54,881 bases of DNA from Gemmatimonadota bacterium (GTDB lineage Bacteria; Gemmatimonadota; Gemmatimonadetes; Gemmatimonadales; Gemmatimonadaceae). The DNA lies in assembly GCA_031127095.1 (NCBI GenBank), contig JARIEX010000004.1, positions 1-54,881 of the forward strand. The letters are read 5' to 3'. Below the pieces are notes generated by a model that did not search any database, was not told where the DNA came from, and worked only from the letters and a program-made list of their open reading frames with translations. The translations under genes and the position numbers were made by a program. Positions 18,663 to 41,080 of this stretch are shown here, one piece after another; the first letter of the stretch is position 1, and every line of letters begins with the position of its first letter.

Positions 18663-21053
18663 TTGTTCAGCGTGCTCCGACCCGATTCTTTTCCCGACCA
18701 GCTGGCCGAGCGGATTACCGACCACTCCGGCCCCAACGCGCCTGCCGAGGCCGCCGCAGGCGCGTTCGTGATCTACTGGATGCGCACCGCGGTGCGCGCA
18801 CACGAAAACCCGGCGCTGGATGTCGCGCTGCTCGCAGCCGCGCAGCTCGGCGTGCCGGTGTTCGTGTATCACGCGCTGTCCGAGCGGTACCCGTTCGCGT
18901 CAGACCGGCACCACACCTTCATTCTGGAAGGGGCGCGGGACGTGGAAGCCGAGTGCCACGCGCGCGGGATCGGGTACGCATTCCACCTCGAGCGCCCCGG
19001 GCATCGCGGGCCGGCCCTGCGCACGTTGGCTGCACGGGCGGCGCTCGTGGTCACCGAGACGTTCCCCGTGGCCCCGTTGGACTGGCTGACCGACTCACTG
19101 GCGGACGCCGTATCGTGCCCGGTGTGGAGTGTGGATACCGCCTGCGTGGTGCCGATGCCGTTGGTGGGGAAGGCACACACCCGGGCGTTCGCCTTCCGCG
19201 ACGACACCGCACGGCTGCGGTCGGCGCGTGTGAGTGCGCCGTGGCGTGATGTGCCGCCGCAGTCGCCCCCGTTCGTGCCGGATGCGTTGCCGTTCGTGCC
19301 GGTCCGTCTGGCCGACGCAGACCTCGCGGCGCTGGTGGCGGCGTGCGAGATCGACCACGGGGTGGCCGCCGTGCCGCACACCCCCGGCGGCACGATGGCG
19401 GGGTACGCCCGGTGGAGGGCGTTCGTGGAGTCGGGGCGGCTGGACCGCTACGCCGCCAAGCGGAACGATGCCACGATCGACGGCGTGAGCCGGATGTCCG
19501 CGTATTTCCACTACGGCATGGTTTCACCCTTCCGCGTGGTGCGCGAGTGCGTGGCGCGCGGTGGGGCGGGCGCCGAGAAGTATCTCGACGAATTGCTCGT
19601 GTGGCGTGAACTCGCCTACGCCTTCTGCTACTGGCACGATGCGCCGGACACGCTGGACGCGATCCCGGGGTGGGCGCGCGAGACGCTTGCGCAGCACGAA
19701 CAGGACCGGCGCACGGTGCATTCGTGGGAGACGCTGGCGCGCGGCCGCACCGGCGATGCGCTGTGGGACGAGACGCAGGCATCACTGCGCATCCACGGCG
19801 AGCTGCACAACAACGTGCGCATGACGTGGGGCAAAGCCATTCCGACGTGGTCGGCGGGGGCGGCCGAGGCGCTGGAGCGACTGATCGACCTGAATCACCG
19901 GTACGCCCTCGACGGACGCGATCCCGCCTCGTTCGGGGGGCTGTTGTGGTGCCTCGGGCAGTTCGACCGTCCGTTCACGCCGCCGGTGGCAGTGCTGGGG
20001 ACCGTCCGTCCACGCACCACCGAATCACACGTTGAACGCATGAACCTGCCGGCGTACCGGGCGCACGTGCGGCGCCCCGTGGGTGCCACGCCGCGCGTGC
20101 TGGTGATCGGTGCTGGCATAGCGGGTCTCGCGTGCGCGCGGACGCTGCTCGACCACGGCCTCAGCGTAACCGTGCTGGACAAGAGCCGGGGCGTGGGCGG
20201 CCGGCTGAGCTCACGCCGCGAGGGGGTGTGGCAGTTCGATCACGGGGCGCCCGCGTTCCGTCTGGACGACCGCCGAACAGCGCCGTTCGCGGCGTCCTGG
20301 CAGGCCGACGGCGTGCTGCACGCGCAGGCCGACGGCGCCTTCATTGGCGCGCGCGGCATGAACGCGCTGCCGAAGCACCTCGCGACCGATCTCACGGTGC
20401 GCACGGGTGTTCAGGTGGCCTCACTGACGCGCGACGGCACGCGCTGGACGGTCACGGACGCCACCGGGGGCACCCACACGGCCGACATCGTGGTGCTGGC
20501 GACGCCGGCGCCGCAGGCCGTCACCCTGCTCGGCACATCGCCCGATATGGCGGACGTGGCCGCGACGTTGGCTGGCGTACGCATGCTCCCCTGCTGGAGC
20601 ACGATGGTGGTGTTCGATGCGCCGCCGTCGGCCGCCGTGGCCGCCTCCCTGCGCGACGGGCTGGCCGAAAGTGACGACCCCATCGTGCATCGCGCGTGGC
20701 GGCAGTCGGTACGACCGGGCCGCCTGCGCGACGAGGCGTGGGTGGTGCACAGCGAGGGCGCATGGAGCGCCGAGCACGTGGAGGCCACGCCGGCCGAGAT
20801 CGCGGCACGGGTGTCGGAGGCGCTCCGTGCGCGTCTGGCGATTGATGGGGCGGTGGTGCACGCGGTGGCACACCGTTGGCGCTACGCGCGCGTGGCGTCG
20901 GGGCTGAACGACGCCTGCCTGTTCGATGCGGCGCGTGGTGTGGGCGCCTGCGGCGACTGGGGGGAGGCTGGCGCGACGCGCCGGGTACGGACCTCGGTGG
21001 AACGCGCGTGGCTGAGCGGTATTGCGCTCGCGGGGCGCGTGCTCGGGCGGTAG
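18663..21053 (+). CDS. Class II CPD photolyase fused to renalase-like FAD oxidoreductase
   Basis: One continuous frame of about 796 residues with two complete domains. Residues 1 to about 470 match class II deoxyribodipyrimidine photolyases: FVIYWMRTAVRAHENPALD at the start, LVWRELAYAFCYWHD, GELHNNVRMTWGKAIPTW and LNHRYALDGRDPASF, the FAD- and DNA-binding blocks of the class. From about residue 476 a Rossmann motif VLVIGAGIAGLACA and DKSRGVGGRLSSRR begin an FAD-dependent oxidoreductase of the renalase/COG3380 type that runs to the end, with a final CGDWGEAG block typical of the FAD-binding C-terminus. The photolyase should repair UV-induced pyrimidine dimers using light; the role of the second domain is unknown. 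Start is TTG 18663 (GGAG at 18655-18658) or GTG 18672. Confidence 0.9.
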   Translation: MFSVLRPDSFPDQLAERITDHSGPNAPAEAAAGAFVIYWMRTAVRAHENPALDVALLAAAQLGVPVFVYHALSERYPFASDRHHTFILEGARDVEAECHARGIGYAFHLERPGHRGPALRTLAARAALVVTETFPVAPLDWLTDSLADAVSCPVWSVDTACVVPMPLVGKAHTRAFAFRDDTARLRSARVSAPWRDVPPQSPPFVPDALPFVPVRLADADLAALVAACEIDHGVAAVPHTPGGTMAGYARWRAFVESGRLDRYAAKRNDATIDGVSRMSAYFHYGMVSPFRVVRECVARGGAGAEKYLDELLVWRELAYAFCYWHDAPDTLDAIPGWARETLAQHEQDRRTVHSWETLARGRTGDALWDETQASLRIHGELHNNVRMTWGKAIPTWSAGAAEALERLIDLNHRYALDGRDPASFGGLLWCLGQFDRPFTPPVAVLGTVRPRTTESHVERMNLPAYRAHVRRPVGATPRVLVIGAGIAGLACARTLLDHGLSVTVLDKSRGVGGRLSSRREGVWQFDHGAPAFRLDDRRTAPFAASWQADGVLHAQADGAFIGARGMNALPKHLATDLTVRTGVQVASLTRDGTRWTVTDATGGTHTADIVVLATPAPQAVTLLGTSPDMADVAATLAGVRMLPCWSTMVVFDAPPSAAVAASLRDGLAESDDPIVHRAWRQSVRPGRLRDEAWVVHSEGAWSAEHVEATPAEIAARVSEALRARLAIDGAVVHAVAHRWRYARVASGLNDACLFDAARGVGACGDWGEAGATRRVRTSVERAWLSGIALAGRVLGR

Positions 21054-29104: not shown

Positions 29105-30515
29105 TCTCCCCCGCCTCGTCGTCATTTTGTGGCGCGCGGTGCCGCTCGTGGTCTCGTTCACGCGGGATCGCCGGCGCTGGATCCGCGCGGGGGCGGGCGC
29201 CTCGCGGACGCCCGCCTTCCACGCACGGCGCGCGCGCCAGCTGGTGCACGATATCGCCGCGCTCGGGCCGGCCTTCGTGAAGCTGGCACAGATCTTCGCC
29301 ACCCGCGCCGACTTGGTCCCCGAGCCGTATCTGGCGGCCCTGGGCTCGCTCACCGATCGTGTGCCGGCGGTGCCCTGGCCCCAGATTCACCGCGCGCTGA
29401 CCGCGGCGTGGGGCGCGGCCCCGGAGTCGGTGGTGGACGGTCTCGACCCGATCCCGCTGGCGGCGGGCTCCCTGGGACAGGTGCACCGGGCGCGGTATCA
29501 GGGGCGCGAGGTGGTGGTCAAAGTGCTGCGCCCCCACGTCGAGGCGATCGTGGTGCGCGACGTGCGGCTGGCGCGGGCCATCGTGCACGCCGTGTACGCG
29601 CGCTTCCCGCATCATCACGTGCGGGGGTTCCTGGTGGTACTCGACGAATTCGAGCGCCATGTGCGCGAGGAAATGGATTTCGAACGCGAAGCGATGCAGT
29701 GCCTGCGCATGCGGGAGCGCTTTGCCGACGAACCGCGGCTGCGCATTCCGCAGGTGGAGACGGCGCTCACCCGCCGCGACGTGCTCGTACTGGAATATCT
29801 CGCGGGCACGCGCATCGACGCGCTGGACGATCAGATTGCGCGTGGCGTGGTGTCGCCGCGGACGCTCGTGGAGACACTGATCGAGACGTATGCCCGCATG
29901 ATGCTGCGCGACGGGGTGTTTCACGCCGACCCGCACCCAGGCAACCTGCTGGTCGATGCGCAGGGACGCATCGTGCTGCTGGACTTCGGCATGGTGATCG
30001 ATGTGGAGATCCCCACGCGCAAGGCGCTCTTCGACACGATCATCGCGGCCATCCGGCGCGACCCCGAGGGGACCGCCGACGGATTTTTCGCGCTCGGCAT
30101 GGTGGCACCGGGGACCTCGCGCGACGCGATGCGGGACCTCGTGCGCGTGCTGCTGGACATCGCGTACCAGGAAACGGCAATGGAAGAGCGCACCCGCGCG
30201 ATCGCCGACCGGGTGATGCGCGAGCTGTTCAACTGGCCGATCGTGCTGCCGGGGGAACTCGTGTACTTCGCGCGCACCGCCGCCCTCATCGAAGGGGTGG
30301 GGGCACGCTACGACCGCAATTTCAACAGCATCCGGGTGGCCTCACCGGTGGTGATGAAAATGCGACGCGAGCTGCTCGCGGTGCTGCTGGGCGACGAGGG
30401 GACGCGCGAACCGATCATTACCTTCGCCGCCACCCTCGGCGCGCTGGCCGGTGGCGCCACGGCCCTCGTGGGGCGCGCGTGGCAGCGGCTGCAGCGGGCG
30501 GCCGTGAGCGGCTAG
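29091..30515 (+). CDS. UbiB/AarF/ABC1 family kinase-like protein with altered motifs
   Basis: A 474-residue atypical kinase-like protein of the UbiB family, usually linked to ubiquinone or other isoprenoid-lipid metabolism. Kinase residues are present: lysine in EVVVKVL, HADPHPGN as the catalytic loop and LDFGM as the metal-binding DFG. Two family-specific motifs are changed: the usual KxGQ is KLAQ (64-67), and the Ala-rich loop AAAS is AAGS (G126). In human ADCK3 those motifs restrain ordinary kinase activity. A hydrophobic C-terminal segment (ITFAATLGALAGGATAL) may anchor it in the membrane. The stop overlaps the convergent TamB stop in the palindrome CTAG. Confidence 0.92.
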   Translation: MFWRDLPRLVVILWRAVPLVVSFTRDRRRWIRAGAGASRTPAFHARRARQLVHDIAALGPAFVKLAQIFATRADLVPEPYLAALGSLTDRVPAVPWPQIHRALTAAWGAAPESVVDGLDPIPLAAGSLGQVHRARYQGREVVVKVLRPHVEAIVVRDVRLARAIVHAVYARFPHHHVRGFLVVLDEFERHVREEMDFEREAMQCLRMRERFADEPRLRIPQVETALTRRDVLVLEYLAGTRIDALDDQIARGVVSPRTLVETLIETYARMMLRDGVFHADPHPGNLLVDAQGRIVLLDFGMVIDVEIPTRKALFDTIIAAIRRDPEGTADGFFALGMVAPGTSRDAMRDLVRVLLDIAYQETAMEERTRAIADRVMRELFNWPIVLPGELVYFARTAALIEGVGARYDRNFNSIRVASPVVMKMRRELLAVLLGDEGTREPIITFAATLGALAGGATALVGRAWQRLQRAAVSG

Positions 30516-33500
30516 AAGATCCACTCACGGAACAGGTCGAAGCCGAACTGCAGACGCGGGAAGCCGTTGGTGCCGAGCTGCGTGCACGGTGACGCCCCGG
30601 GATCGACACCGATCTGCCCGGAGAGATTGCGCGCGAAGCGATACTCGGCGGCGATGCCCGCCCAGAGCGAGGCCCCGCGCAGCGAGGTGGTGCCGCCGCG
30701 ACACACCCCCGTGTTGAGGCGCAGGAAGGTGCGCGGGCCAAGCTGCTTGCCCGCGCTGATGCTGAGGTTGTCGAGCAACGAGAACGCACCCAGATCCTGC
30801 GTGGACTGTCCGCCGGCGGTGCTCACCTGAATGGTGTTCACGCCGGGGAGTAACCGCTGCAACGCCCCTTCCACGGCGCCGCCCACCGAGGGGAGCAGCA
30901 CACCGGTCACGGCACGCACGGTACTCTGACTCTGGCCGTCCAGCGCGAACGTGGGTGCGCCGAAAATCAGCAGCGAGATGATTTCCGATTCCGGCGCGCT
31001 GGCGTACAGCGGATCGGTGCTGGAGAGCGTGAGCACCGGGACATCGTAGGTGCCGCCAATGTGCACCCGTACCGGCACCGCACCACCGCCCGCAATGCGC
31101 ACCACATTCGTGGCGCTGATGTCGAGCGTCGGCGCGATCTCGCTGCTGCCGTAGAAGCGCACGCGGCCGGAATCGACGCTGAAGCTGCGGCTCACGACCC
31201 CGAGATCGAGCCGGTACTGCCCGCGGTTGGCCGTGACCTCGCCGTCGAGCGCGAGCCGTTCGCCACTCATGGCGATGGCGAGCCCGCCGGCGATGTTCAC
31301 GCGCGACTCCGGGGTCTGCACCCACACGTCGGCGCCAAGGTCGACGCGCGCGTTCTGCACCGTGAGTAACGCGCCGAGCGCGGCGAGGGATTGCGCCGCG
31401 GTTTCGGCGACGGGCACCTCATCGGCGCCAAGCAGCGCCCGCGCGGCGTTGGAGGAGAGGTCGAGCGCGCTTTGTGCGCTGAGCGGATCGGCCACCAGAT
31501 TGGCGCGCGGAATGGTGATCGCCCCGCTGAGCACCGGCCGCGTGAGGCTTCCCTCGAGGCGTACGGCTCCGCTGAGATCGAGATCGGTGCCGTCGCGCTG
31601 ACGCGAGAGCGCCACGTTGCTGGCCGATACCCGCAGCGCGATCGTGGACGGCTCGCCGGCATGGAAGTGCAGCGCGCCGGACGCGGCGATGGTATCGAGC
31701 ACACCGCCGCTCTGCACGCGGAGCGACTCCAGAATGAGCGAGTCCTCGGCCGCCCGAAGCACCACGCGCCCCCCCACCGGCTCGATACCGAGATCGTCGA
31801 TGAGGGCCCCGACGCCGTCGGCGGTCATCGTACCACGCGCCACGGGGTGATCGACCGTGCCGCCGATGGCCAGCTGCCCCGACAGGCGCCCGCGCAGACG
31901 CCGCACACCGGTGAGGGCCAGTGGGAGCCCCTCGAGCCGCAGGGAGTCGGCCGTGAGCGCCGCGTTGACCTGATCCGACAGCAGCCGCTTTTCCACTGAC
32001 GTCAGCGCGAGGTCGATCGGCACGCGGGCCTCAGCCCGAAGCGCGCCCCCCAGAGAATCCCGCAGGACCGCCTCCGCCACGAGCCGCCGGTCGGCATAGC
32101 TGCCCGTGGCATTGATGGTGGGGACGCGCAGTCCCGGTATACCGAGTGAATCGGCGCGCAGGGTCCACGCCAGCCGCGGCGCGAGCCGCACGCCATCCAG
32201 TTGGGCGGTACCGCTGACGGTGCCTTGAAACGGCGTCGTCCCGGCCAGCAGCGCGGCGATCTCACCCACCGGAAACTGCTCGAGGCGCAACGTGCCCGTA
32301 ACCGCACGGTCCCGCGGAATGTCGGCCGACGCCTGCAGGATGCCGGCGGCGTTCGAGCGCAGCTCGAGCGGCAGTAGCCGCAGACCCAACGAATCCTGCT
32401 GCACCACGATGGGCTGCGCACTCTGCCAGACCACATCGGCGTAGGACAGGCGCAGGGAGTCGAGGGCGACGGCCAACCGCGACGGCGCGCGCTGGAACGC
32501 CCCGCGCGCCACGAGGTGGGCGTCGCGAGCCGAACTCACGTCGAGCGTGAGGCGGCCGCTGTCGGGGTTGGCGTCCGCCACGCGGAAGGCCACCGACTGC
32601 AGGCGGATCGCACCGAGGCCGTCCACGTCGTCGGCCGTGGCAGCGCCCTCAAAGGTGGGGCGGGTGAACACGTGGTCCGCCTGCACCGATCCGAACAGAC
32701 CACCCACCTGCACCGCGCCGACGCGCACGGCGCTCGCGCCAAGGGCGGCCGTGGCTCCAGCGTCGGCGAGGCTGCCGTACAGATAGCCCGAGAGCGAGAG
32801 ATCTCCCGCGAGCGAGTCGACCGCCAGCGCGCGGACCGCCGCGGCCGCGGTGCTGTCCACCGGCGCGAGCATCGCGGCCACGCGTGCCAACTCCGTGCGG
32901 AGTGCGCCCAGCGAGTCGGCGCGCACCGCCAGCTGCAACGTGTCGAGCCCGCCTGCGTCGCGCGCGAGGGCGCCGTGCACGTCGAGCGTGACGCCGCCGA
33001 GGTGTGCGATGGCGGAATCGACGACGAGACGATCGGCACCGAGCGACGCGGCGCCCGTGAGGTCGAACGCCGGATAGTCGCGTCCGGCGCGCTGCTGCCA
33101 CCCCAGCGCCATCGTGCCGGTGAGCGGCACGGGCGGTGTGGCCACGGGGGTGGCCGCGCCGGGCTCCGCCGCCGCGCGATCGCCCCGCAGGGCGAACCGC
33201 CAGGGGCCATCGAGCGCCGTGTGCGGGACGGTGGGACTCCCCATCCAACGGCGGAGATCGAACCGGTTGAGCGTGCCGTCGGCGGCCAGTTGCCACACGG
33301 TCCCGTTCAGGGCGGCGGTGCCGCGCATGGCCACCGTGTTCGCGGGCGCCCCGCCCGCGGTGTCGGCAACCGTGCCAGCCGCCGGCCCCCCCGGCGCGTC
33401 GTCCACCGCCTGCAGCGACGCACTCCACACCAGTGCATCCGTGCGCCCGTCCACCGTGACGCGCCCCGCGAGCGTGCCGCGCACCGGCAGGGTGGTGTCG

Positions 33501-35143
33501 ATCCGCGCCAGCGTGCCCATCGCGAGCGGGGCGAACTGCAGCGCGGCGTGCACCTCGGGGGTACGCGCGAAGGCGCCCCCGAAGCGCGCCCGGAGATCAC
33601 CGCGCACGGTGGACTCCGTACCGGTGCCATCCCGCCACGTGAGTGCCAGGTCCGCGAGGTCGATGGCCGTGAGATCGGCCAGGCGGATTCGCCCCCGCGC
33701 CGTGACGATTCCGTCTACCGCCGGCAGCGGCGGCACGAGCGACGGCGGCAGCGCCTGCACCGAACGCAGGTCGAGGCGCGCGTCGGTGACGGTCATGTTC
33801 GTGGCGCGCGGACGGTCGCCGATCGACACCGACCCCGCGAGCGCCACGGATGACACCGCGCCGCCGCGCACGCGGGCGTCCGTAAAGCGCGCCGCCAAGC
33901 GATCCATGCGGAAATCGCTCAGCGGCCCGCCCTGTTTGGCCACCAGCGTGCCGGTGAACACCCCCCGGATTTCGGCGGGCAGCGCGTCGTAGCTGAGCCG
34001 GCGCAGCAGCGCGCTCTCCAGCGGCACGAACGCCAGATCGACGCCCTGCAAGCGCATGACCGCCGGCTCGAGCACCACCTCGATGTCACCGGTGATTCGC
34101 GACGCGCCGCTTGCCACGTCGAGCGCGGACAGGGAAAACGCCACGTCGTCGGGATTCTCGAGCGTGCGCATGCGCACGGTGGCGGTGCCACGCCCGTCGG
34201 TGGGGAGCACGTCCCAGATCCACCCCAGGTCGGAGAGGCCGGCATCCGCCGCAACCACCACGTCGTAGCGCAGCGGACCGGGCTGATTCCACGCCACGGT
34301 TCCCGTCACGCGGCCATGCGACGCGGGGAGTTGCACGTCGGGGAGGACGAGCTGCAGCGAGTCGGAGGTCCAGCGCAGCTGGCCGCCGGCCTGCACGACG
34401 CGCACCGGCGGATCGGAGATCACACCGCGGAGGCTATCGAGCTGCACCGAGGCGGGGCGCCGTTGTGCATCGACGATGACGGCGTCGTGCGCCCGCACGC
34501 GATCAAGGGTGATGAGTCGGCGCTCGCGCCAGCCGCCGGCAGGGCCGGGCACGAGGTCGTGCAGGCTGTCGCGCACCGCGATCACGCTGTCGCGCGCCGC
34601 ACCGGTGAACACCGGGTGCGGCGCCCACGGTGCGATCGTCGTGATCCGCACGTCGTCCACGACCAGCGAATCGAGGCGCACATCGTCGCCGAAGCCGGGC
34701 GCCCCGCGGGGGCGCGTGACGGTATCCCCCGCAATGAGGTACGCGATGTTCCAGGGACCCGCGTCGTCCTTGCGGAGATCGAGCCGGAGGCCGCGCACGG
34801 ACAACCGCCGGATATGAATCGCGCGGTCGAAGAGCGCCCGCACGTCGAGGGATCCGTCGAGGGACTCGGCGCTGACCATGGGCACCCCCGCGGTATCCAC
34901 GAGGCTGACCTGCTCGGCCACGATGCGCCCCAGCCCGACCTCGCGCAGCACCCCCACGCGCAGCGATCCGCGGCCGTTCAAGACCCCGTTTGTCCCCGAA
35001 ATTGCCGCACTGAGCACCCAGCGGCGGCCGCGCGCGGTGCCGGTGGCGAGCAGGTAGGCCAGCGTGACGCCACCGCCCGCGCCGAGCAGGATGGCGGCCA
35101 CCCACCAGAAGCGCCGTTGGCGCGCCGACATGGTGGGGAGCAT
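30512..35143 (-). CDS. tamB: TamB-like translocation/assembly module protein
   Basis: A very large (1,543-residue) envelope protein: one N-terminal membrane helix (FWWVAAILLGAGGGVTLAYLL), a long repetitive beta-rich body typical of AsmA/TamB bridge proteins, and a C-terminal DUF490/TamB domain (DPLYASAPESEIISLLIFG, LPSVGGAVEGAL, YRFARNLSGQIGVDPG). Such proteins span the periplasm and are thought to move phospholipids or help outer-membrane protein insertion. ATG 35143 shares one base with the stop of the Omp85 gene (TGATG), arguing for this start over a longer frame; MSARQ at 35131 is an alternative. It forms a unit with the upstream TamA-like gene, as in many diderms. Confidence 0.9.
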   Translation of the reverse strand: MLPTMSARQRRFWWVAAILLGAGGGVTLAYLLATGTARGRRWVLSAAISGTNGVLNGRGSLRVGVLREVGLGRIVAEQVSLVDTAGVPMVSAESLDGSLDVRALFDRAIHIRRLSVRGLRLDLRKDDAGPWNIAYLIAGDTVTRPRGAPGFGDDVRLDSLVVDDVRITTIAPWAPHPVFTGAARDSVIAVRDSLHDLVPGPAGGWRERRLITLDRVRAHDAVIVDAQRRPASVQLDSLRGVISDPPVRVVQAGGQLRWTSDSLQLVLPDVQLPASHGRVTGTVAWNQPGPLRYDVVVAADAGLSDLGWIWDVLPTDGRGTATVRMRTLENPDDVAFSLSALDVASGASRITGDIEVVLEPAVMRLQGVDLAFVPLESALLRRLSYDALPAEIRGVFTGTLVAKQGGPLSDFRMDRLAARFTDARVRGGAVSSVALAGSVSIGDRPRATNMTVTDARLDLRSVQALPPSLVPPLPAVDGIVTARGRIRLADLTAIDLADLALTWRDGTGTESTVRGDLRARFGGAFARTPEVHAALQFAPLAMGTLARIDTTLPVRGTLAGRVTVDGRTDALVWSASLQAVDDAPGGPAAGTVADTAGGAPANTVAMRGTAALNGTVWQLAADGTLNRFDLRRWMGSPTVPHTALDGPWRFALRGDRAAAEPGAATPVATPPVPLTGTMALGWQQRAGRDYPAFDLTGAASLGADRLVVDSAIAHLGGVTLDVHGALARDAGGLDTLQLAVRADSLGALRTELARVAAMLAPVDSTAAAAVRALAVDSLAGDLSLSGYLYGSLADAGATAALGASAVRVGAVQVGGLFGSVQADHVFTRPTFEGAATADDVDGLGAIRLQSVAFRVADANPDSGRLTLDVSSARDAHLVARGAFQRAPSRLAVALDSLRLSYADVVWQSAQPIVVQQDSLGLRLLPLELRSNAAGILQASADIPRDRAVTGTLRLEQFPVGEIAALLAGTTPFQGTVSGTAQLDGVRLAPRLAWTLRADSLGIPGLRVPTINATGSYADRRLVAEAVLRDSLGGALRAEARVPIDLALTSVEKRLLSDQVNAALTADSLRLEGLPLALTGVRRLRGRLSGQLAIGGTVDHPVARGTMTADGVGALIDDLGIEPVGGRVVLRAAEDSLILESLRVQSGGVLDTIAASGALHFHAGEPSTIALRVSASNVALSRQRDGTDLDLSGAVRLEGSLTRPVLSGAITIPRANLVADPLSAQSALDLSSNAARALLGADEVPVAETAAQSLAALGALLTVQNARVDLGADVWVQTPESRVNIAGGLAIAMSGERLALDGEVTANRGQYRLDLGVVSRSFSVDSGRVRFYGSSEIAPTLDISATNVVRIAGGGAVPVRVHIGGTYDVPVLTLSSTDPLYASAPESEIISLLIFGAPTFALDGQSQSTVRAVTGVLLPSVGGAVEGALQRLLPGVNTIQVSTAGGQSTQDLGAFSLLDNLSISAGKQLGPRTFLRLNTGVCRGGTTSLRGASLWAGIAAEYRFARNLSGQIGVDPGASPCTQLGTNGFPRLQFGFDLFREWIF

Positions 35144-37392
35144 CAGAACGCCTGCCCCAAGCCAAAATGGAAGGCGAGCCGCGACAGGACGCCGCGTCCC
35201 GTGGGGGGACGGAAGCTGGTCGGGCACGCGAAGATCGACGTACCCACGGGGTCCGGCGTGGCCCGCGGGCTGGCGCAGAGAATCTGCCCCGTGGTGCCCT
35301 GCCCGTCACCGTCGGTGAAGTACAGCGCCCGTCCAGCGCGAGGTTCGTACGGGCGGTAGCCGATGTCCATGCGGAAGGGACCCAGCGGCGTGACGATGCG
35401 GAGGCCGAGCCCGGGGGTGGCGCGGAGGTTGCCCCATTGGAACCCCTCGGAGCGCGTTTCCCACACGTTGCCGGCATCGACGAAGGCGGCGAACTGCAGC
35501 TGCTCCGCGAGCAGCCGGAACCCGCGGCGCCACTCGAGGTTGGCCACGAGGAGCGCCGTGCCGCCGCGCGGGACGGCGCGATAGCCGGTGTTCTCGCGCG
35601 CCACCACCACGCGCTCGCCGGCGGGGCCGGTGGTCTCCTCGACATCGGTGACCACGTAGATCAGCGGGCCCAGCAGGTTTTGCTGGTAGCCGCGCACCGA
35701 GTTCTGGCCGCCGGAGAACAGGCGCTCCTGCTGCGGAATCAGCGGTGAGCCATCCACGAGTGCGGCGCCAGGGGCGAAGGCGCGTGCCAGTTGCACCCGT
35801 ACGCCCACCACCCCGCCACCGACGCGGCGGTACGTGGAGGCGTCGCCCGTCCCACGGTAGAAGGTGAACGTTTCCACCAACGGCGAGAACGTCTGACCGG
35901 CGCGCGCCTCGCCCCGCAGCCGCCAGCCGCGCGCGGGGCTGGTGGGATCGTCGGTGCGATCGTGCGTGACCGTGCTGCTCACGATCCCCACGCCGCGCCC
36001 GAACAGCGAGAGCTGAAAGTCCTCGGGGCGGCACTGCCCGAAGCGGGCGCAGGAGAGTGCCGGATCGGTGGTCGTCTTGCCGTTCTCGTACTGAAAGCCG
36101 GCGGTGCCGGCGGTGCGCGGGGAGAACTGCCGTGCGAGTTCGACCAGCGACCCGAAGCCCGTCTCGCGCAGATACGCGAACGGCTCGCCGCGGCGTTCGC
36201 TGTACAGCGCGAACACCGGCTGCACGGGAAGCCCGAACAGGCGCGTGTTCGTGAGCGTGGTCCCGACGTAGTAATTCAGCCGTTCGCTGAACGGGTCGAC
36301 GCGGAGCGCGCCGGAGCAGAGCGCGGGGGCGAACCCGGCCGGCGCCCCGACCCCGATTTTCGAGGCGCGCGCCGACAGCTCCACCCGGCGTCCCACCCCC
36401 AGAAAGCCGCGGTCGGTTATGCGTCCCTGCGCACGGATGCAATCCTGCGTGGCCCATCCCAGCCCCACGCGGGCCGCGCGCGTGCGCGCCTCGGCCACGG
36501 CCACGCGCAGGTCGAGCACACTGTCACGCTCCCCCAGCAGCGGGGTGAGCGTATCGATGAGGACCAGCCGGAACGCCTCGGAGCGGTACAGGTCGCGCTG
36601 TGCGTTGAGGATGGCGCTGGCCTTGAAACGGTCGCCGCGGCGGATACCGACGAGCCGCGCCACGTCGGCGGAGTCGACGCGCGGACGCTCGGGGCGCAGT
36701 GGCTGCAGGTCCATCTGGATCGCCCCGATCGTGATGACGCGACCGGTGGTGAAGTCGAGCGCGAGCGAGGCCCGCGCCGTAGCGCTGTCGATGGTGACGT
36801 GGCTCACCGGGCGTGTGGCGCGGGCGTACCCGGCGTCACGCAGTTGCGTGAGCACCTGCTCCACAATGGTGTCGGTGCGAAGGCGATCGAAGCGCGCGTG
36901 CTCCAGGGCGTGCAAGGGGCCGTCGAACGGGCGCCGCCCGGACGCCGGGTCGGGGAGCCCCCGTACGACGACCGTGTCGAGCAGGAGCTCCCGGCCGGCG
37001 TCGACGAGAAAACGCACCCGGACGCCGTTGCGGCGCGGCTCCAGCGTAGACGTGACCGTGGCCTGAAACCAGCCGGCCTGCCGGTGCAGCACGGCGAGTC
37101 GGAGGGCATCGCGGCGCACTTCGAGGGGGTCCACACAGGGCGCCGCACCGATGTGCAACAGGCGGGTGCGCAGCCCCGGCTCGCGGGTAACGATCGTGGC
37201 CGCCAGCGATACGGCGTCGAAGCGCGGACTCCCCGAGAATTCCACAGCACGCACGCGATCGGCGGCGGCGCACCGCGTGGCGCGTGGCACACTGGCGCGT
37301 TGCGCGCTCGCCCCCGCCGGCCACCACGCCGTCATGCACACAGCGGCGAGTGAAACGGCCCGACGGCGGAAGGGAAGCGGGAGGCAAGACAT
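35143..37392 (-). CDS. Omp85 family outer-membrane protein (TamA/BamA-like)
   Basis: An exported outer-membrane barrel protein of about 749 residues. After a signal peptide (ending WWPAGASAQR) come POTRA-like segments (RAVEFSGSPRFDAVSLAATI, then ITIGAIQMDLQPL), and a C-terminal Omp85 barrel with NSVRGYQQNLLGP (the R-G-Y signature) and a terminal aromatic residue (GLGQAF), the usual outer-membrane insertion signal. Pairing with a tamB gene suggests a TamA role, in lipid transport or outer-membrane biogenesis. Start ATG 37392 fits the signal peptide; GTG 37416 adds eight residues. Divergent from the region 6 operon, sharing 177 bases. Confidence 0.88.
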   Translation of the reverse strand: MSCLPLPFRRRAVSLAAVCMTAWWPAGASAQRASVPRATRCAAADRVRAVEFSGSPRFDAVSLAATIVTREPGLRTRLLHIGAAPCVDPLEVRRDALRLAVLHRQAGWFQATVTSTLEPRRNGVRVRFLVDAGRELLLDTVVVRGLPDPASGRRPFDGPLHALEHARFDRLRTDTIVEQVLTQLRDAGYARATRPVSHVTIDSATARASLALDFTTGRVITIGAIQMDLQPLRPERPRVDSADVARLVGIRRGDRFKASAILNAQRDLYRSEAFRLVLIDTLTPLLGERDSVLDLRVAVAEARTRAARVGLGWATQDCIRAQGRITDRGFLGVGRRVELSARASKIGVGAPAGFAPALCSGALRVDPFSERLNYYVGTTLTNTRLFGLPVQPVFALYSERRGEPFAYLRETGFGSLVELARQFSPRTAGTAGFQYENGKTTTDPALSCARFGQCRPEDFQLSLFGRGVGIVSSTVTHDRTDDPTSPARGWRLRGEARAGQTFSPLVETFTFYRGTGDASTYRRVGGGVVGVRVQLARAFAPGAALVDGSPLIPQQERLFSGGQNSVRGYQQNLLGPLIYVVTDVEETTGPAGERVVVARENTGYRAVPRGGTALLVANLEWRRGFRLLAEQLQFAAFVDAGNVWETRSEGFQWGNLRATPGLGLRIVTPLGPFRMDIGYRPYEPRAGRALYFTDGDGQGTTGQILCASPRATPDPVGTSIFACPTSFRPPTGRGVLSRLAFHFGLGQAF

Positions 37393-37569
37393 GCGAACTC
37401 GGAATGTAATTCGCACCGGTGGGTGTCATCAGGATGGGGCTGACGTGCCGCCGCGTGTTCCCCCGACAGCACCACCAACCACCGCCGGCGATCATCTGTT
37501 CATGACCCGTTGATGGCGACGACGTAGATTTGATCCAACGAACTCGACCAATCACTCCGGAGCGCGTGC

Positions 37570-38178
37570 ATGATCCCGATGACCGACGTTGCGACTGGCC
37601 TGCTCATCGCGTGGCAGGCGGCTGTTGCCCCCACTGCGGCGGCTCCCCTGCCGCCAGCGGATTCCCTGCCCGTCCGGTCCGTAATGGTGGCCCAGCCGGT
37701 CGGGCTCACGGTGTACGCCGACACGGTGCCGCGGGTGCGACGCAAGGCCATCGTGTACAGCGACGGCTACGCCACCCGGCTCCGGATCCACAAAGTGCTC
37801 AGCTGGAGCATGCTGCCGCTCTTCGCCGCGTCCTACGTGTCCGGTGACCAAATCTTCGAGAAGGGGCGCGACGCGCCCTCGTGGGCACGCACGATGCACG
37901 GCCCCGCCGCCACCGGGAGCGCCGTTCTCTTCGGCGCCAACACCGTGACCGGGGCGTGGAATCTGTGGGAGGGGCGCAAGGATCCGAACGGGCGCACGCG
38001 CCGCGTCCTGCACAGCGTGCTCTTCACTGCCGCCAGCGGCGGGTTCGCGTACGCCGGCACCCGGCTCGCCGACGAGGCCGAGGAAAATCTCGACGCGCGC
38101 CGCTCGCACCGGAACCTCGCCCTGAGCTCGATGGGGCTCTCGACGGTGAGCTGGCTGATCATGCTCATCGGCAACTGA
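37570..38178 (+). CDS. Four-helix membrane protein with b561-like histidine pattern
   Basis: A 202-residue protein with an N-terminal hydrophobic stretch (possible signal or anchor), a short extracytoplasmic region and four predicted membrane helices. Histidines stand at or near the start of each helix: H74 (RIHKVLSW), H110 (TMHGP), H148 (VLHSV) and H180 (RSHRN), spaced 36, 38 and 32 residues. In cytochrome b561 proteins four histidines about 33-39 residues apart on successive helices bind two hemes, one at each membrane face. The match is of pattern, not clear sequence similarity, so a di-heme cytochrome is a hypothesis. ATG 37570 has GGAG nearby upstream. Likely first gene of the Rieske operon. 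Confidence 0.6.
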   Translation: MIPMTDVATGLLIAWQAAVAPTAAAPLPPADSLPVRSVMVAQPVGLTVYADTVPRVRRKAIVYSDGYATRLRIHKVLSWSMLPLFAASYVSGDQIFEKGRDAPSWARTMHGPAATGSAVLFGANTVTGAWNLWEGRKDPNGRTRRVLHSVLFTAASGGFAYAGTRLADEAEENLDARRSHRNLALSSMGLSTVSWLIMLIGN

Positions 38179-38200
38179 CCCTTTCCCGCTTCTGCTCCCG

Positions 38201-38731
38201 ATGCTCGAGACACTGACGGCACTGCTGCAACCCTGGTCGGATGTCTACTCCGACAGCGCGTATCTCCCCACGCTCATTCTGGCCGTGCATGTGCTGGCGC
38301 TCTTCGGTGGCGGCGGCATCGCCATCGCCGCCGACCGGCGCGTGCTGCAATCCACGCCGGCCACGCGTGAGGCATATCAGGCGGCCGCCGAGGAGCTGCG
38401 CACCACGCACGCCATCGTGATCGGCGCGATCGTGTTGATGGTGGTGAGCGGGATCGCGCTGGCGACGTCAGACGTCGGGACCTTCTTCGTCTCGCCGGTG
38501 TTCTGGGCGAAGATGGCGATGTTTGTCGTGCTGATCGGCAACGGCGCCTTCATGCGCCGCACGGAGTCGCGCGTGCTCGCGGCCGCCACCGACGCCGGGG
38601 TCGAGTTCGACCGGACGACACAGTGGTCCGGCCCGCACCTCCCGTGGGCGCTACTGAAGCGGTCGGCCGCGATCAGCCTGGTGTCGTGGTTCCTCGTGGT
38701 GCTGCTGGGCGTCGTGCTCTCGAATATCTGA
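38201..38731 (+). CDS. Small four-helix membrane protein of unknown function
   Basis: A 176-residue protein with four predicted membrane helices: 22-44 (LILAVHVLALFGGGGIAIAA), 69-89 (THAIVIGAIVLMVVSGIALAT), 98-116 and 153-174. It has one membrane-embedded His (H30) and one at the start of helix 2 (H70), which could bind a single heme, as in some DUF2214/DUF6644-like proteins, but I do not recognise a firm family. It lies 22 bases after the four-histidine gene and 37 bases before the first Rieske gene, so it is most likely co-transcribed and part of the same electron-transfer unit. Confidence 0.6.
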   Translation: MLETLTALLQPWSDVYSDSAYLPTLILAVHVLALFGGGGIAIAADRRVLQSTPATREAYQAAAEELRTTHAIVIGAIVLMVVSGIALATSDVGTFFVSPVFWAKMAMFVVLIGNGAFMRRTESRVLAAATDAGVEFDRTTQWSGPHLPWALLKRSAAISLVSWFLVVLLGVVLSNI

Positions 38732-38768
38732 CCGTCGCGACTTCTCTTCCCGAACCGGATCCCGTCGG

Positions 38769-39254
38769 ATGACCGATTCCCACTCTCCCTGCTCCGGCTG
38801 CAGCGCCCGCCGGGACTTTCTCCGCAGCGCGCTCACGGCCGCGGCGTCCGTCGCGGCCGTGAGCGCCTTCGGCCCGGCCGAGGCGATCGCGGCGCTAGCA
38901 CCACGCGCGGCGGGCAGTGTGCGCTACGCCCTGCCAGCCGCCGACGGCGTGTCGATCGACAAAACCAACGAAGTGATTCTCTGCCGCGCCGGCAACGAGA
39001 TCTACGCGTTCGCCCTCTCGTGTCCGCACGAGAACACGGCACTGAAGGCCATGTCGAAGAATGCCGGGTTCCAGTGCTCGCGGCACAAGTCCAAGTACAA
39101 GCCCGACGGTACCTTCGTCAGCGGCCGCGCCACGCGCAACATGGACCGCCTGCAGATCACGCGCGACGGCGCGCAGGTCGTCGTCGATCCCGACGTGTTC
39201 TTTGAGAGCGATGCCGAACCCGCCAAGTGGGCGGCGGCGTTCGTGACCGTCTGA
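38769..39254 (+). CDS. Tat-exported Rieske [2Fe-2S] protein
   Basis: A 161-residue protein with a Tat signal (RRDFLRSALTAAAS) and a Rieske domain. Cluster ligands are C85 and H87 (CPH) and C103 and H106 (CSRH), so the CxH...CxxH pattern is complete. It lacks the two extra cysteines that form a disulfide in high-potential bc1 Rieske proteins, suggesting a lower-potential, ferredoxin-like centre; that is an inference. Before the Tat motif stands an unexpected CSGC (C8, C11), shared by the next gene. The mature protein should be periplasmic. It probably accepts or donates electrons to the membrane proteins encoded just upstream. Confidence 0.88.
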   Translation: MTDSHSPCSGCSARRDFLRSALTAAASVAAVSAFGPAEAIAALAPRAAGSVRYALPAADGVSIDKTNEVILCRAGNEIYAFALSCPHENTALKAMSKNAGFQCSRHKSKYKPDGTFVSGRATRNMDRLQITRDGAQVVVDPDVFFESDAEPAKWAAAFVTV

Positions 39255-39285
39255 CCGAGCGGGTCCCTTCTCGCCTTTTCACCGA

Positions 39286-39738
39286 ATGCGCATGTCCGAC
39301 TGTTCCAGCTGCCGCAGCACCGGCGTCACGCGCCGCGATTTTCTGGCCCGCAGCTCCGTCGTGGCCCTCACCGCCGTGCTGGCCGCCTGCGGTGACGACA
39401 GCGATGATGGCGCCACCGGCCCCACCACTGTGAACCTGACCGTCGCACTCTCGAATTTCCCGACGCTGGGCACCGTGGGTGGCATTGCCGTGGTCTCCAG
39501 TGGGAGCACGCCGGTGGCGGTGGTCCGCTCGGCAACCGCCACGTACCGCGCCTTCTCGCTGTCGTGTCCACACCAAGGCACCACCGTGAGCGTCAGCGGC
39601 ACGGGCTTCCGCTGCCCGAATCATGGCGCCACGTTCAATGCCAGCGGCGCGTGGACGGGAGGCGAGCGTACCTCCGGTCTGCGTGAGTTCACAGTCGCGT
39701 CGAATCCGTCCGCCGGCACGCTCACGATTACCTCCTGA
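39286..39738 (+). CDS. Tat-exported Rieske [2Fe-2S] lipoprotein
   Basis: A 150-residue protein distinct from the preceding Rieske gene. The Tat motif RRDFLARSS is followed by a hydrophobic stretch and lipobox LAAC (C35), so the mature protein should be a lipid-anchored periplasmic protein. The Rieske ligands are C94, H96 (CPHQG) and C110, H113 (CPNHG); again no disulfide cysteines. A CSSC (C6, C9) sits before the Tat arginines, as in the neighbour. After C35 the DDSDD linker tethers the domain. Alternative start ATG 39292. The M20 peptidase gene begins four bases after the stop. Confidence 0.88.
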   Translation: MRMSDCSSCRSTGVTRRDFLARSSVVALTAVLAACGDDSDDGATGPTTVNLTVALSNFPTLGTVGGIAVVSSGSTPVAVVRSATATYRAFSLSCPHQGTTVSVSGTGFRCPNHGATFNASGAWTGGERTSGLREFTVASNPSAGTLTITS

Positions 39739-39742
39739 CGTC

Positions 39743-41080
39743 ATGTCCCCTTCCGTTCCGTCCCGCCGCCCCGGCTCCACCGTGCCGGCGCTGCTGTCCC
39801 TCCTCACCTTGTCTCTGGCGGCGCCACTCACTGGCGGTGCCCAGGCCAAGCCGGCGGCGAAGGCCGCCGCCAAGGCCACCGCGCTCGAGGCCACGATGGA
39901 TCGCCTCGCCCTGCAGCCGGCCGTGGCCCGGTCGCTCGCCGCGCTGCAGACGGACAACGAGTGGACGCTCCGCGAGCAGATCGCGCTCTGCGAGATTCCG
40001 GCGCCGCCGTTCAAGGAGGCCGCGCGCGCAGCCGCGTTCCGTGACAAGCTGGCCGCACTTGGCGTGCAGCAGCTCCGGATGGACAAGGAAGGGAACGTGA
40101 TCGGGGAGATCCGCGGCACAGGCCCCGGCCCCACGCTGCTGCTGAGTGGTCACCTCGACACCGTGTTCCCCGAAGGGACCAACGTGAAGGTGAAGCGCGA
40201 GGGAACGAAGCTTTCGGCCCCCGGCATCGGGGACGACTGCCGCGGGCTGGCCGCCGTGCTGGCCACGACGCGGCAGATCATGGCCAACAAGATCCCGTTC
40301 ACGGGGCGCCTGCTGGTGGTGGGCACGATGGGTGAAGAGGGACCGGGCAACCTGCGCGGCGTCCGCGCGCTGTTCGCCGGCCCGCTCAAGGACTCGATCG
40401 ACATGTTCATTTCCATCGATGGCACGGGCTTCGGGATCACCAACGGCGCCGTGGGGAGCAATCGGTATCGCGTGTCGTACAAGGGCCCGGGCGGACACAG
40501 CTACGGCGCCTTCGGCATGCCGAATCCGATTCACGCCATGGGTCGCGCGATCGCGAAGATCGCCGATCTCGAGGCCGCGACGAACCCGAAGGTCACCTTC
40601 AACGTCGGTCTCGTGTCCGGCGGCACCTCGGTCAATTCCATTTCGGCCGACGGTGTGATGGACATCGACCTGCGCAGCGAGTCGGCGGCGGCGCTGGCCG
40701 ACATCGACGCGCGGCTGCACGTGGCGCTGCGTCAGGCGCTGGCCGAGGAGAAGGCCCGCTGGCCCAAGTCCACGATGCCGCTGGCCCTCGTGATCGACAC
40801 CACCGGATTGCGGCCGGCCGGCACCACGCCGGATTCGTCGTTCATCGTCCGTGCGTCGCTGGCGGCGGCCCGCACCATGAACGTGTATACGCCGCTCACG
40901 ATTTCGAGCACCGACGCGAACATCCCGATCAGCAAGGGCGTGCCGGCCGTCACGCTCGACGGCGGCGGCGTGGGGCGCGGGGCGCACTCGCTCGACGAGT
41001 CGTACGACGACCGTACCGACGGCTACAAGGGCCCGCAGTGGATTCTGCTGGTCGTGATCGGCCTGCTGACCGCCCGCTAA
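39743..41080 (+). CDS. Exported M20 family metallopeptidase
   Basis: A 445-residue zinc peptidase with a signal peptide ending near GGAQAK. Zinc-site residues are visible: H137 and D139 (SGHLDTVFPEG), D164/D165 (GIGDDCRG), the catalytic and ligand glutamates E198/E199 (MGEEGPG), and a final His in GAHSLDE. The dimerisation domain starts about residue 245 (YRVSYKGPGGHSYG). Family enzymes are amino- and di/tripeptidases or deacylases. It is separated by only four bases from the Rieske lipoprotein gene and may share its transcript, although no biochemical link is obvious. It ends three bases before the convergent gluQ stop. Confidence 0.9.
   Translation: MSPSVPSRRPGSTVPALLSLLTLSLAAPLTGGAQAKPAAKAAAKATALEATMDRLALQPAVARSLAALQTDNEWTLREQIALCEIPAPPFKEAARAAAFRDKLAALGVQQLRMDKEGNVIGEIRGTGPGPTLLLSGHLDTVFPEGTNVKVKREGTKLSAPGIGDDCRGLAAVLATTRQIMANKIPFTGRLLVVGTMGEEGPGNLRGVRALFAGPLKDSIDMFISIDGTGFGITNGAVGSNRYRVSYKGPGGHSYGAFGMPNPIHAMGRAIAKIADLEAATNPKVTFNVGLVSGGTSVNSISADGVMDIDLRSESAAALADIDARLHVALRQALAEEKARWPKSTMPLALVIDTTGLRPAGTTPDSSFIVRASLAAARTMNVYTPLTISSTDANIPISKGVPAVTLDGGGVGRGAHSLDESYDDRTDGYKGPQWILLVVIGLLTAR

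Follow-up and report, generated by a model that had tools for sequence, protein, structure and literature searches.

A candidate Rieske/heme-b electron-transfer module of the cell envelope in Gemmatimonadota

We describe a cluster of four genes that may encode a compact, envelope-located electron-transfer module, distinct from the bc1 complex, in which Rieske and heme-b centers would probably pass electrons from quinol to a periplasmic carrier; we hold this reading to be somewhat likelier right than wrong. The cluster combines a b561-like membrane protein (A) with a second membrane protein (B) and two exported Rieske proteins of different type (C and D). While its parts are related to known families, their combination, its conservation, and the pairing of the two Rieske types appear undescribed in the open-access literature searched, where no description of the module was found.

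The window, by which we mean the whole 54,881-nucleotide stretch of DNA analyzed, belongs, as contig C101, to a 3.5 Mb genome that is 83% complete and whose relatives are labeled Gemmatimonadota, Gemmatimonadaceae, or Gemmatimonas phototrophica. An earlier note on this DNA had drawn attention to four tightly spaced genes, and all four open reading frames were recovered on the + strand, where they take up 2169 bp and are separated by 22, 37, and 31 bp. Upstream lie divergently oriented TamB-like (PF04357) and Omp85-type (PF01103) genes (30512-37416). Downstream, an M20-family peptidase gene (39743..41080, + strand; PF01546 over cut-off) starts 4 bp after D. It is possibly cotranscribed with the module and lies outside the conserved part, being retained downstream in some congeners only and not seen adjoining the module in other genera. 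TamA-like, TamB-like, and peptidase genes recur next to the module in congeners; no flanking gene was found conserved beside it across all surveyed loci. A scan for promoters and terminators returned nothing informative.

Gene A (37570..38178, + strand) encodes a protein of 202 amino acids, characterized here from its open reading frame, an alignment of homologues, and an AF2 model as a b561-like four-helix membrane protein. The model (mean pLDDT 85.8, core blocks 95-98) contains helices at residues 67-101, 104-134, 142-170, and 174-200. Four histidines had been placed at helix starts in the earlier note, and indeed His74 (37789-37791), His110 (37897-37899), His148 (38011-38013), and His180 (38107-38109), spaced 36, 38, and 32 residues apart, each fall 6-7 residues past the start of a predicted helix. 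Their conservation among homologues is complete: these putative heme ligands are invariant in 55/55 A sequences, every other alignment column has histidine in at most 7, and the spacing between His110 and His148 is 38 in every one of the 55. Proteins of the cytochrome b561 superfamily have a four-helix core with histidines paired 1-3 and 2-4 and two hemes on opposite membrane faces, and their histidines are spaced by 34-39 residues, to which the values in A are close. Since each of the four helices carries one invariant histidine close to its beginning, the model suggests that, in an up-down bundle, these residues should pair two and two as in cytochrome b561, with His74/His148 on one membrane face and His110/His180 on the opposite one.

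By model and alignment, A has the four-helix membrane core of the b561 superfamily, with one conserved histidine per helix in a layout suited to two heme sites, and weak profile matches recur: at E<=1, 46 of the 55 A members match DUF4079, 15 match DUF420, and 6 match PF03188, none of those inspected scoring over the gathering threshold. The window protein reaches 16.3 bits against DUF4079 (cut-off 31.4), and the best PF03188 score among ten A members scanned singly was 19.1 (cut-off 23). A profile of A also matches the designed two-heme bundle 4D2 (E=1e-3). A Foldseek search of the A model against the PDB gave no significant match to a known cytochrome, the best hits being generic helical bundles (E 0.09 at best), and the same 4D2 design ranks sixth in that non-significant list. 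The analogy to cytochrome b561 drawn in the earlier note therefore stands as to histidine pattern, helix layout, and weak profile matches, but finds neither an inspected match at a curated cut-off nor a significant structural neighbor in the PDB. We accordingly describe A as b561-like by its predicted anatomy, and the sub-threshold matches do not establish membership of the superfamily.

Two indications conflict as to which face of A points to the periplasm. The protein begins with a signal-like N-terminus (several homologues start like a signal peptide) and a Pro/Thr-rich linker, and a start of this kind would put His74/His148 outside. Its Lys and Arg counts peak in the N-terminal linker and the loop between helices 2 and 3, which by the positive-inside rule argues for the reverse orientation.

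Gene B (38201..38731, + strand) encodes a membrane protein of 176 amino acids that resembles DUF2214, DUF6644, and HemJ by alignment, weak profile matches, and AF2 modeling. The two membrane-associated histidines seen previously are His30 (38288-38290) and His70 (38408-38410), which lie in predicted helices 22-50 and 56-90 of the model (pLDDT 92.1). Both are invariant in an alignment of 38 B sequences, as are Lys104 (38510-38512), Gly38, Gly39, Asp45, Gly84, Leu111, Asn114, and Gly115. At E<=0.1, DUF2214 is matched by 31/38 homologues, DUF6644 by 25/38, and UPF0093/HemJ by 19/38. The window protein itself stays below all family cut-offs (25.8 bits against 34.1 for PF09980, which is DUF2214, and 17.8 against 34.2 for PF03653, which is HemJ), and Foldseek returned no significant match to its model in the PDB. 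From its distant resemblance to HemJ and CopD, B is probably a mono-heme or quinone-site subunit. We considered whether B could be the organism's own HemJ, that is, its protoporphyrinogen oxidase, and rejected this: PF03653 finds nothing at E<=0.001 when run against the window's genome (83% complete), which does contain a flavin protoporphyrinogen oxidase recognized by TIGR00562. Separately, a weak TIGR00562 match at 20094-20270 of the window falls inside an open frame of 845 amino acids that is probably another FAD-dependent oxidase.

Genes C (38769..39254, + strand; 161 amino acids) and D (39286..39738, + strand; 150 amino acids) encode Rieske proteins with Tat signals. The CxH...CxxH sites attributed to them are complete, both proteins match PF00355 over its curated cut-off of 20.3 bits (C with 31.3 bits, E=1.9e-7; D with 38.0 bits, E=1.6e-9), and both begin with a Tat-type RRDFL motif. 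The cluster ligands, Cys85, His87, Cys103, and His106 in C and Cys94, His96, Cys110, and His113 in D, are invariant in alignments of 40 and 26 sequences, respectively. D also matches TIGR01409 over cut-off, and its RRDFL motif is followed by a lipobox, LAAC, whose Cys35 (39388-39390) is invariant in all 26 sequences; D is probably a Tat-exported lipoprotein.

The two proteins differ at the positions that tune Rieske potentials. In a motif census, all 40 C homologues have the Ser and 39/40 the Tyr (Ser108 and Tyr110 in the window protein), and disulfide cysteines occur in 0/40, while 25/26 D homologues carry Ala/Phe at the corresponding positions. The disulfide cysteine pair occurs in 5/26 D homologues, never as one cysteine alone, and is absent from both C and D of the window. 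A similar motif pattern was obtained in a second set of loci from whole genomes. In the Rieske protein of bc1, the Ser and Tyr follow the second pair of ligands and raise the potential of the cluster; yeast mutants lose 130 mV without the Ser and 65 mV without the Tyr (cited in PMC12954380), though the same paper includes one case where a missing Tyr left the potential not lowered. A disulfide-free Rieske protein with a potential of +225 mV has been described (PMC3758308), so that the missing disulfide alone is no sign of low potential. Because C keeps Ser/Tyr and D has Ala/Phe, C should be the higher-potential and D the lower-potential center, although other effects could shift both. The prediction from this difference is a pair of Rieske signals whose midpoint potentials lie clearly apart.

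In three loci of the A-D-B-C type, the D homologue is one longer open reading frame, a double-Rieske lipoprotein with two complete Rieske sites (L093:1385-2245, 286 amino acids; L101:2851-4014, 387 amino acids; L156:2401-3261, 286 amino acids), giving three clusters per module. Genes that seemed inserted in A-D-B-C loci were considered as a fifth component and rejected, since they are this long double-Rieske D in the three loci just named, and an ABC-F-like frame on the opposite strand between module genes in a further locus (L142).

The association of these genes extends far beyond the window. When about 85,000 species genomes were scanned for A with a single degenerate pattern, narrow enough that a wider spread is possible, 55 loci from named genomes were obtained; nearly all are Gemmatimonadota, and some are labeled Acidobacteriota, Terriglobia, or Vicinamibacterales. 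Together with the window, these 55 loci make up our main survey of 56, in which a Rieske gene adjoins A in 46, among them loci from different Gemmatimonadota families and from several metagenome-assembled genomes labeled Acidobacteriota. The gene orders were ABCD in 15 loci, ABC in 14, A in 9, ADBC in 4, AD in 4, ACD in 2, and AC in 2, the others being single; at least one of the 9 loci in which A has no module neighbors lies at a contig end. In the whole-genome locus set, whose organisms partly overlap with the main survey, a Rieske gene stands next to A in 35/40. B is missing from some main-survey loci that retain A and a Rieske gene, and the pairing of A with a Rieske protein is therefore more constant than the presence of B. 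Gene A was found in 39/61 close relatives and in nearly all congeners searched; in a sample of 298 genomes from the phylum, 89 have it (32 of 119 genera). A search of plasmids with A gave no match.

Purifying selection acts on each of the four genes: compared with one congener (L043), their dN/dS values are 0.11-0.21 at a dS of 0.7-1.3. The earlier note named non-conserved histidines and non-adjacent genes in relatives among the findings that would refute it, and neither was encountered: the histidines are invariant and the gene order is kept across genera. With the low dN/dS, the association is more than chance. Additional copies of A were also seen. In L154 (order ABCDA) and L156 (AADBC), a second copy lies no more than about 3 kb away from the module, which suggests tandem duplication of A. 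Elsewhere, up to three copies occur per genome (L031 and L036 in genome G056, L102 and L082 in JANXXJ01), some without Rieske neighbors, and these are possibly paralogues with another role.

We propose that A is a four-helix cytochrome of b561-like type that would hold two b hemes, one per membrane face, ligated by His74/His148 and His110/His180. B would be the other membrane subunit, of HemJ/DUF2214/CopD type and probably with one b heme or a quinone site; no computed result points to a quinone site. C and D would be exported Rieske proteins facing the periplasm, with D held there by a lipid anchor. Menaquinone is the quinone pool of this bacterial group, and the most likely flow would run from menaquinol to the hemes of A and B, on to the Rieske centers of D and C, and from these to a periplasmic one-electron carrier. 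This carrier, for example a lipoprotein cupredoxin or a cytochrome c, could in turn deliver electrons to a terminal oxidase. Heme occupancy, quinone use, complex formation, and the order and direction of electron flow are all things that we infer.

Cupredoxins and PQQ enzymes are periplasmic redox proteins, and both turn up beside the module in some genomes, a feature that had escaped the earlier note, as had the lipobox of D and the difference in tuning residues between C and D. A copper-binding lipoprotein (PF00127 over cut-off) is encoded directly upstream of A in four loci only (L087, L091, L097, L125). PQQ dehydrogenases are encoded directly upstream of the module in L124 and L126, and a YceI gene follows it in L105. 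Two heme-copper oxidase matches in the window genome are possible electron sinks. The absence of a bc1 cytochrome b or cytochrome c gene nearby, remarked on before, also holds: no CxxCH heme-c motif turned up in any of the window's 37 called genes, and the single match to PF00033 (bc1-type cytochrome b) in the window genome lies on contig C23, with none on the window's contig. Across 298 genomes, both A and PF00033 occurred in 49, A only in 40, and PF00033 only in 108 (odds ratio 1.15, p=0.61). The module and bc1 cytochrome b are thus statistically independent across the phylum, and replacement of bc1 is rejected as a general role. Given this independence and the bc1 gene elsewhere in the genome, the lack of bc1 genes close to the module is no argument that it replaces bc1.

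A bolder form of our proposal, in which A to D form a quinol-oxidizing complex that arose independently of bc1 and b6f and couples a b561-type diheme cytochrome to two Rieske centers of different potential (three in some relatives), strikes us as rather unlikely. The electrons might instead flow the opposite way: periplasmic donors such as PQQ dehydrogenases or cupredoxin would feed the Rieske proteins, and A would carry the electrons through the membrane to an acceptor such as menaquinone or a cytoplasmic reductase. The PQQ dehydrogenases upstream of the module fit this direction, as does the predicted two-heme layout over both faces, which would suit transmembrane transfer; b561 proteins transfer electrons in either direction. 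However, such dehydrogenases are neighbors of the module in just two loci, and since C keeps both potential-raising residues, transfer from C to menaquinone, with its potential of about -80 mV, would be uphill. We consider reverse flow unlikely.

It is less probable that the module delivers electrons to one dedicated periplasmic or membrane enzyme and so assists biosynthesis or repair and not respiration; this enzyme might reduce metals or thiols, be a hydroxylase, or act in heme or copper handling or detoxification. Such a task would agree with the resemblance of B to HemJ and CopD, whose families are linked to heme synthesis and copper, and with the fact that Rieske ferredoxin-type proteins often supply oxygenases. 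On the other hand, the neighbors of the module include no conserved catalytic partner, and the window genome has its own flavin protoporphyrinogen oxidase. Two specific partners were rejected, electron supply dedicated to NosZ and a NiFe-hydrogenase served in the manner of HucE, each being found in only 10/30 congeners, whereas nearly all those searched have A; the hydrogenase profile PF00374 is absent from the window genome (83% complete) and from 20/30 congeners searched. That A is heme-free, with structural or metal-binding histidines in a loose association of envelope genes, would accord with the non-significant fold searches and the loci where A stands alone, but is very improbable given exactly four invariant histidines, one per helix, in two phyla, the recurrent if weak matches to two-heme families, and a gene order kept over wide distances.

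To our knowledge, Rieske proteins in membrane respiration occur almost only with bc-type cytochrome b. If our preferred reading of a Rieske/heme-b module is correct, the conserved pairing of Rieske proteins with a b561-like protein would constitute a separate route from membrane hemes to periplasmic carriers, and one that is widespread in a poorly studied phylum. Were the module in fact an independent quinol-oxidizing complex, it would represent a second evolutionary solution for joining Rieske and heme-b chemistry at the membrane. Three single-contig genomes of the same genus (G020, G028, G029) contain the module, which may thus be testable in cultures.

Among known systems, the module recalls the complexes of Rieske proteins with cytochrome b, namely bc1, b6f, and the anammox variants (PMC12954380), in that a b protein, probably with two hemes, is combined with Rieske proteins of Tat type. 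The CxHxxC...CxCH disulfide pair of bc1 is shared with the 5 D homologues mentioned above and is lacking in every C homologue. Unlike bc1 and b6f, A is not detected by PF00033, no cytochrome c1 or f gene accompanies the module, there are two Rieske proteins of different type, and the module occurs independently of bc1. Another Rieske-type protein, HucE, is encoded by a gene that is reportedly often linked to hucL, in a paper whose study organisms include Gemmatimonas aurantiaca (PMC7784904); in contrast to HucE of group 2a NiFe-hydrogenase clusters, the Rieske genes of the module do not stand beside a recognized hydrogenase. C has the small subunit of arsenite oxidase, AioB, among its nearest solved relatives by profile (8r3a, 4aay, E about 4e-11) and resembles AioB of strain NT-26 as an exported Rieske protein without the disulfide (PMC3758308). 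It differs by a conserved C-terminal Trp segment and its position beside A and B, scores 24.8 bits against the AioB equivalog TIGR02694 (cut-off 95.65), and has no AioA-type molybdenum subunit recognized among the module's neighbors. B is akin to the HemJ (UPF0093), DUF2214, DUF6644, and CopD membrane proteins through weak matches in many members and its invariant His30, His70, and Lys104, but falls below their cut-offs and is encoded with Rieske genes instead of heme-synthesis genes. Finally, A is like the cytochrome b561 superfamily (PF03188; PF13301, DUF4079; PF04238, DUF420) in its one invariant histidine per helix, the predicted 1-3/2-4 pairing, and the recurrent weak profile matches, and differs from it in its signal-like N-terminus, Pro/Thr-rich linker, and Rieske partners; we know of no described b561 protein that is paired with Rieske proteins.
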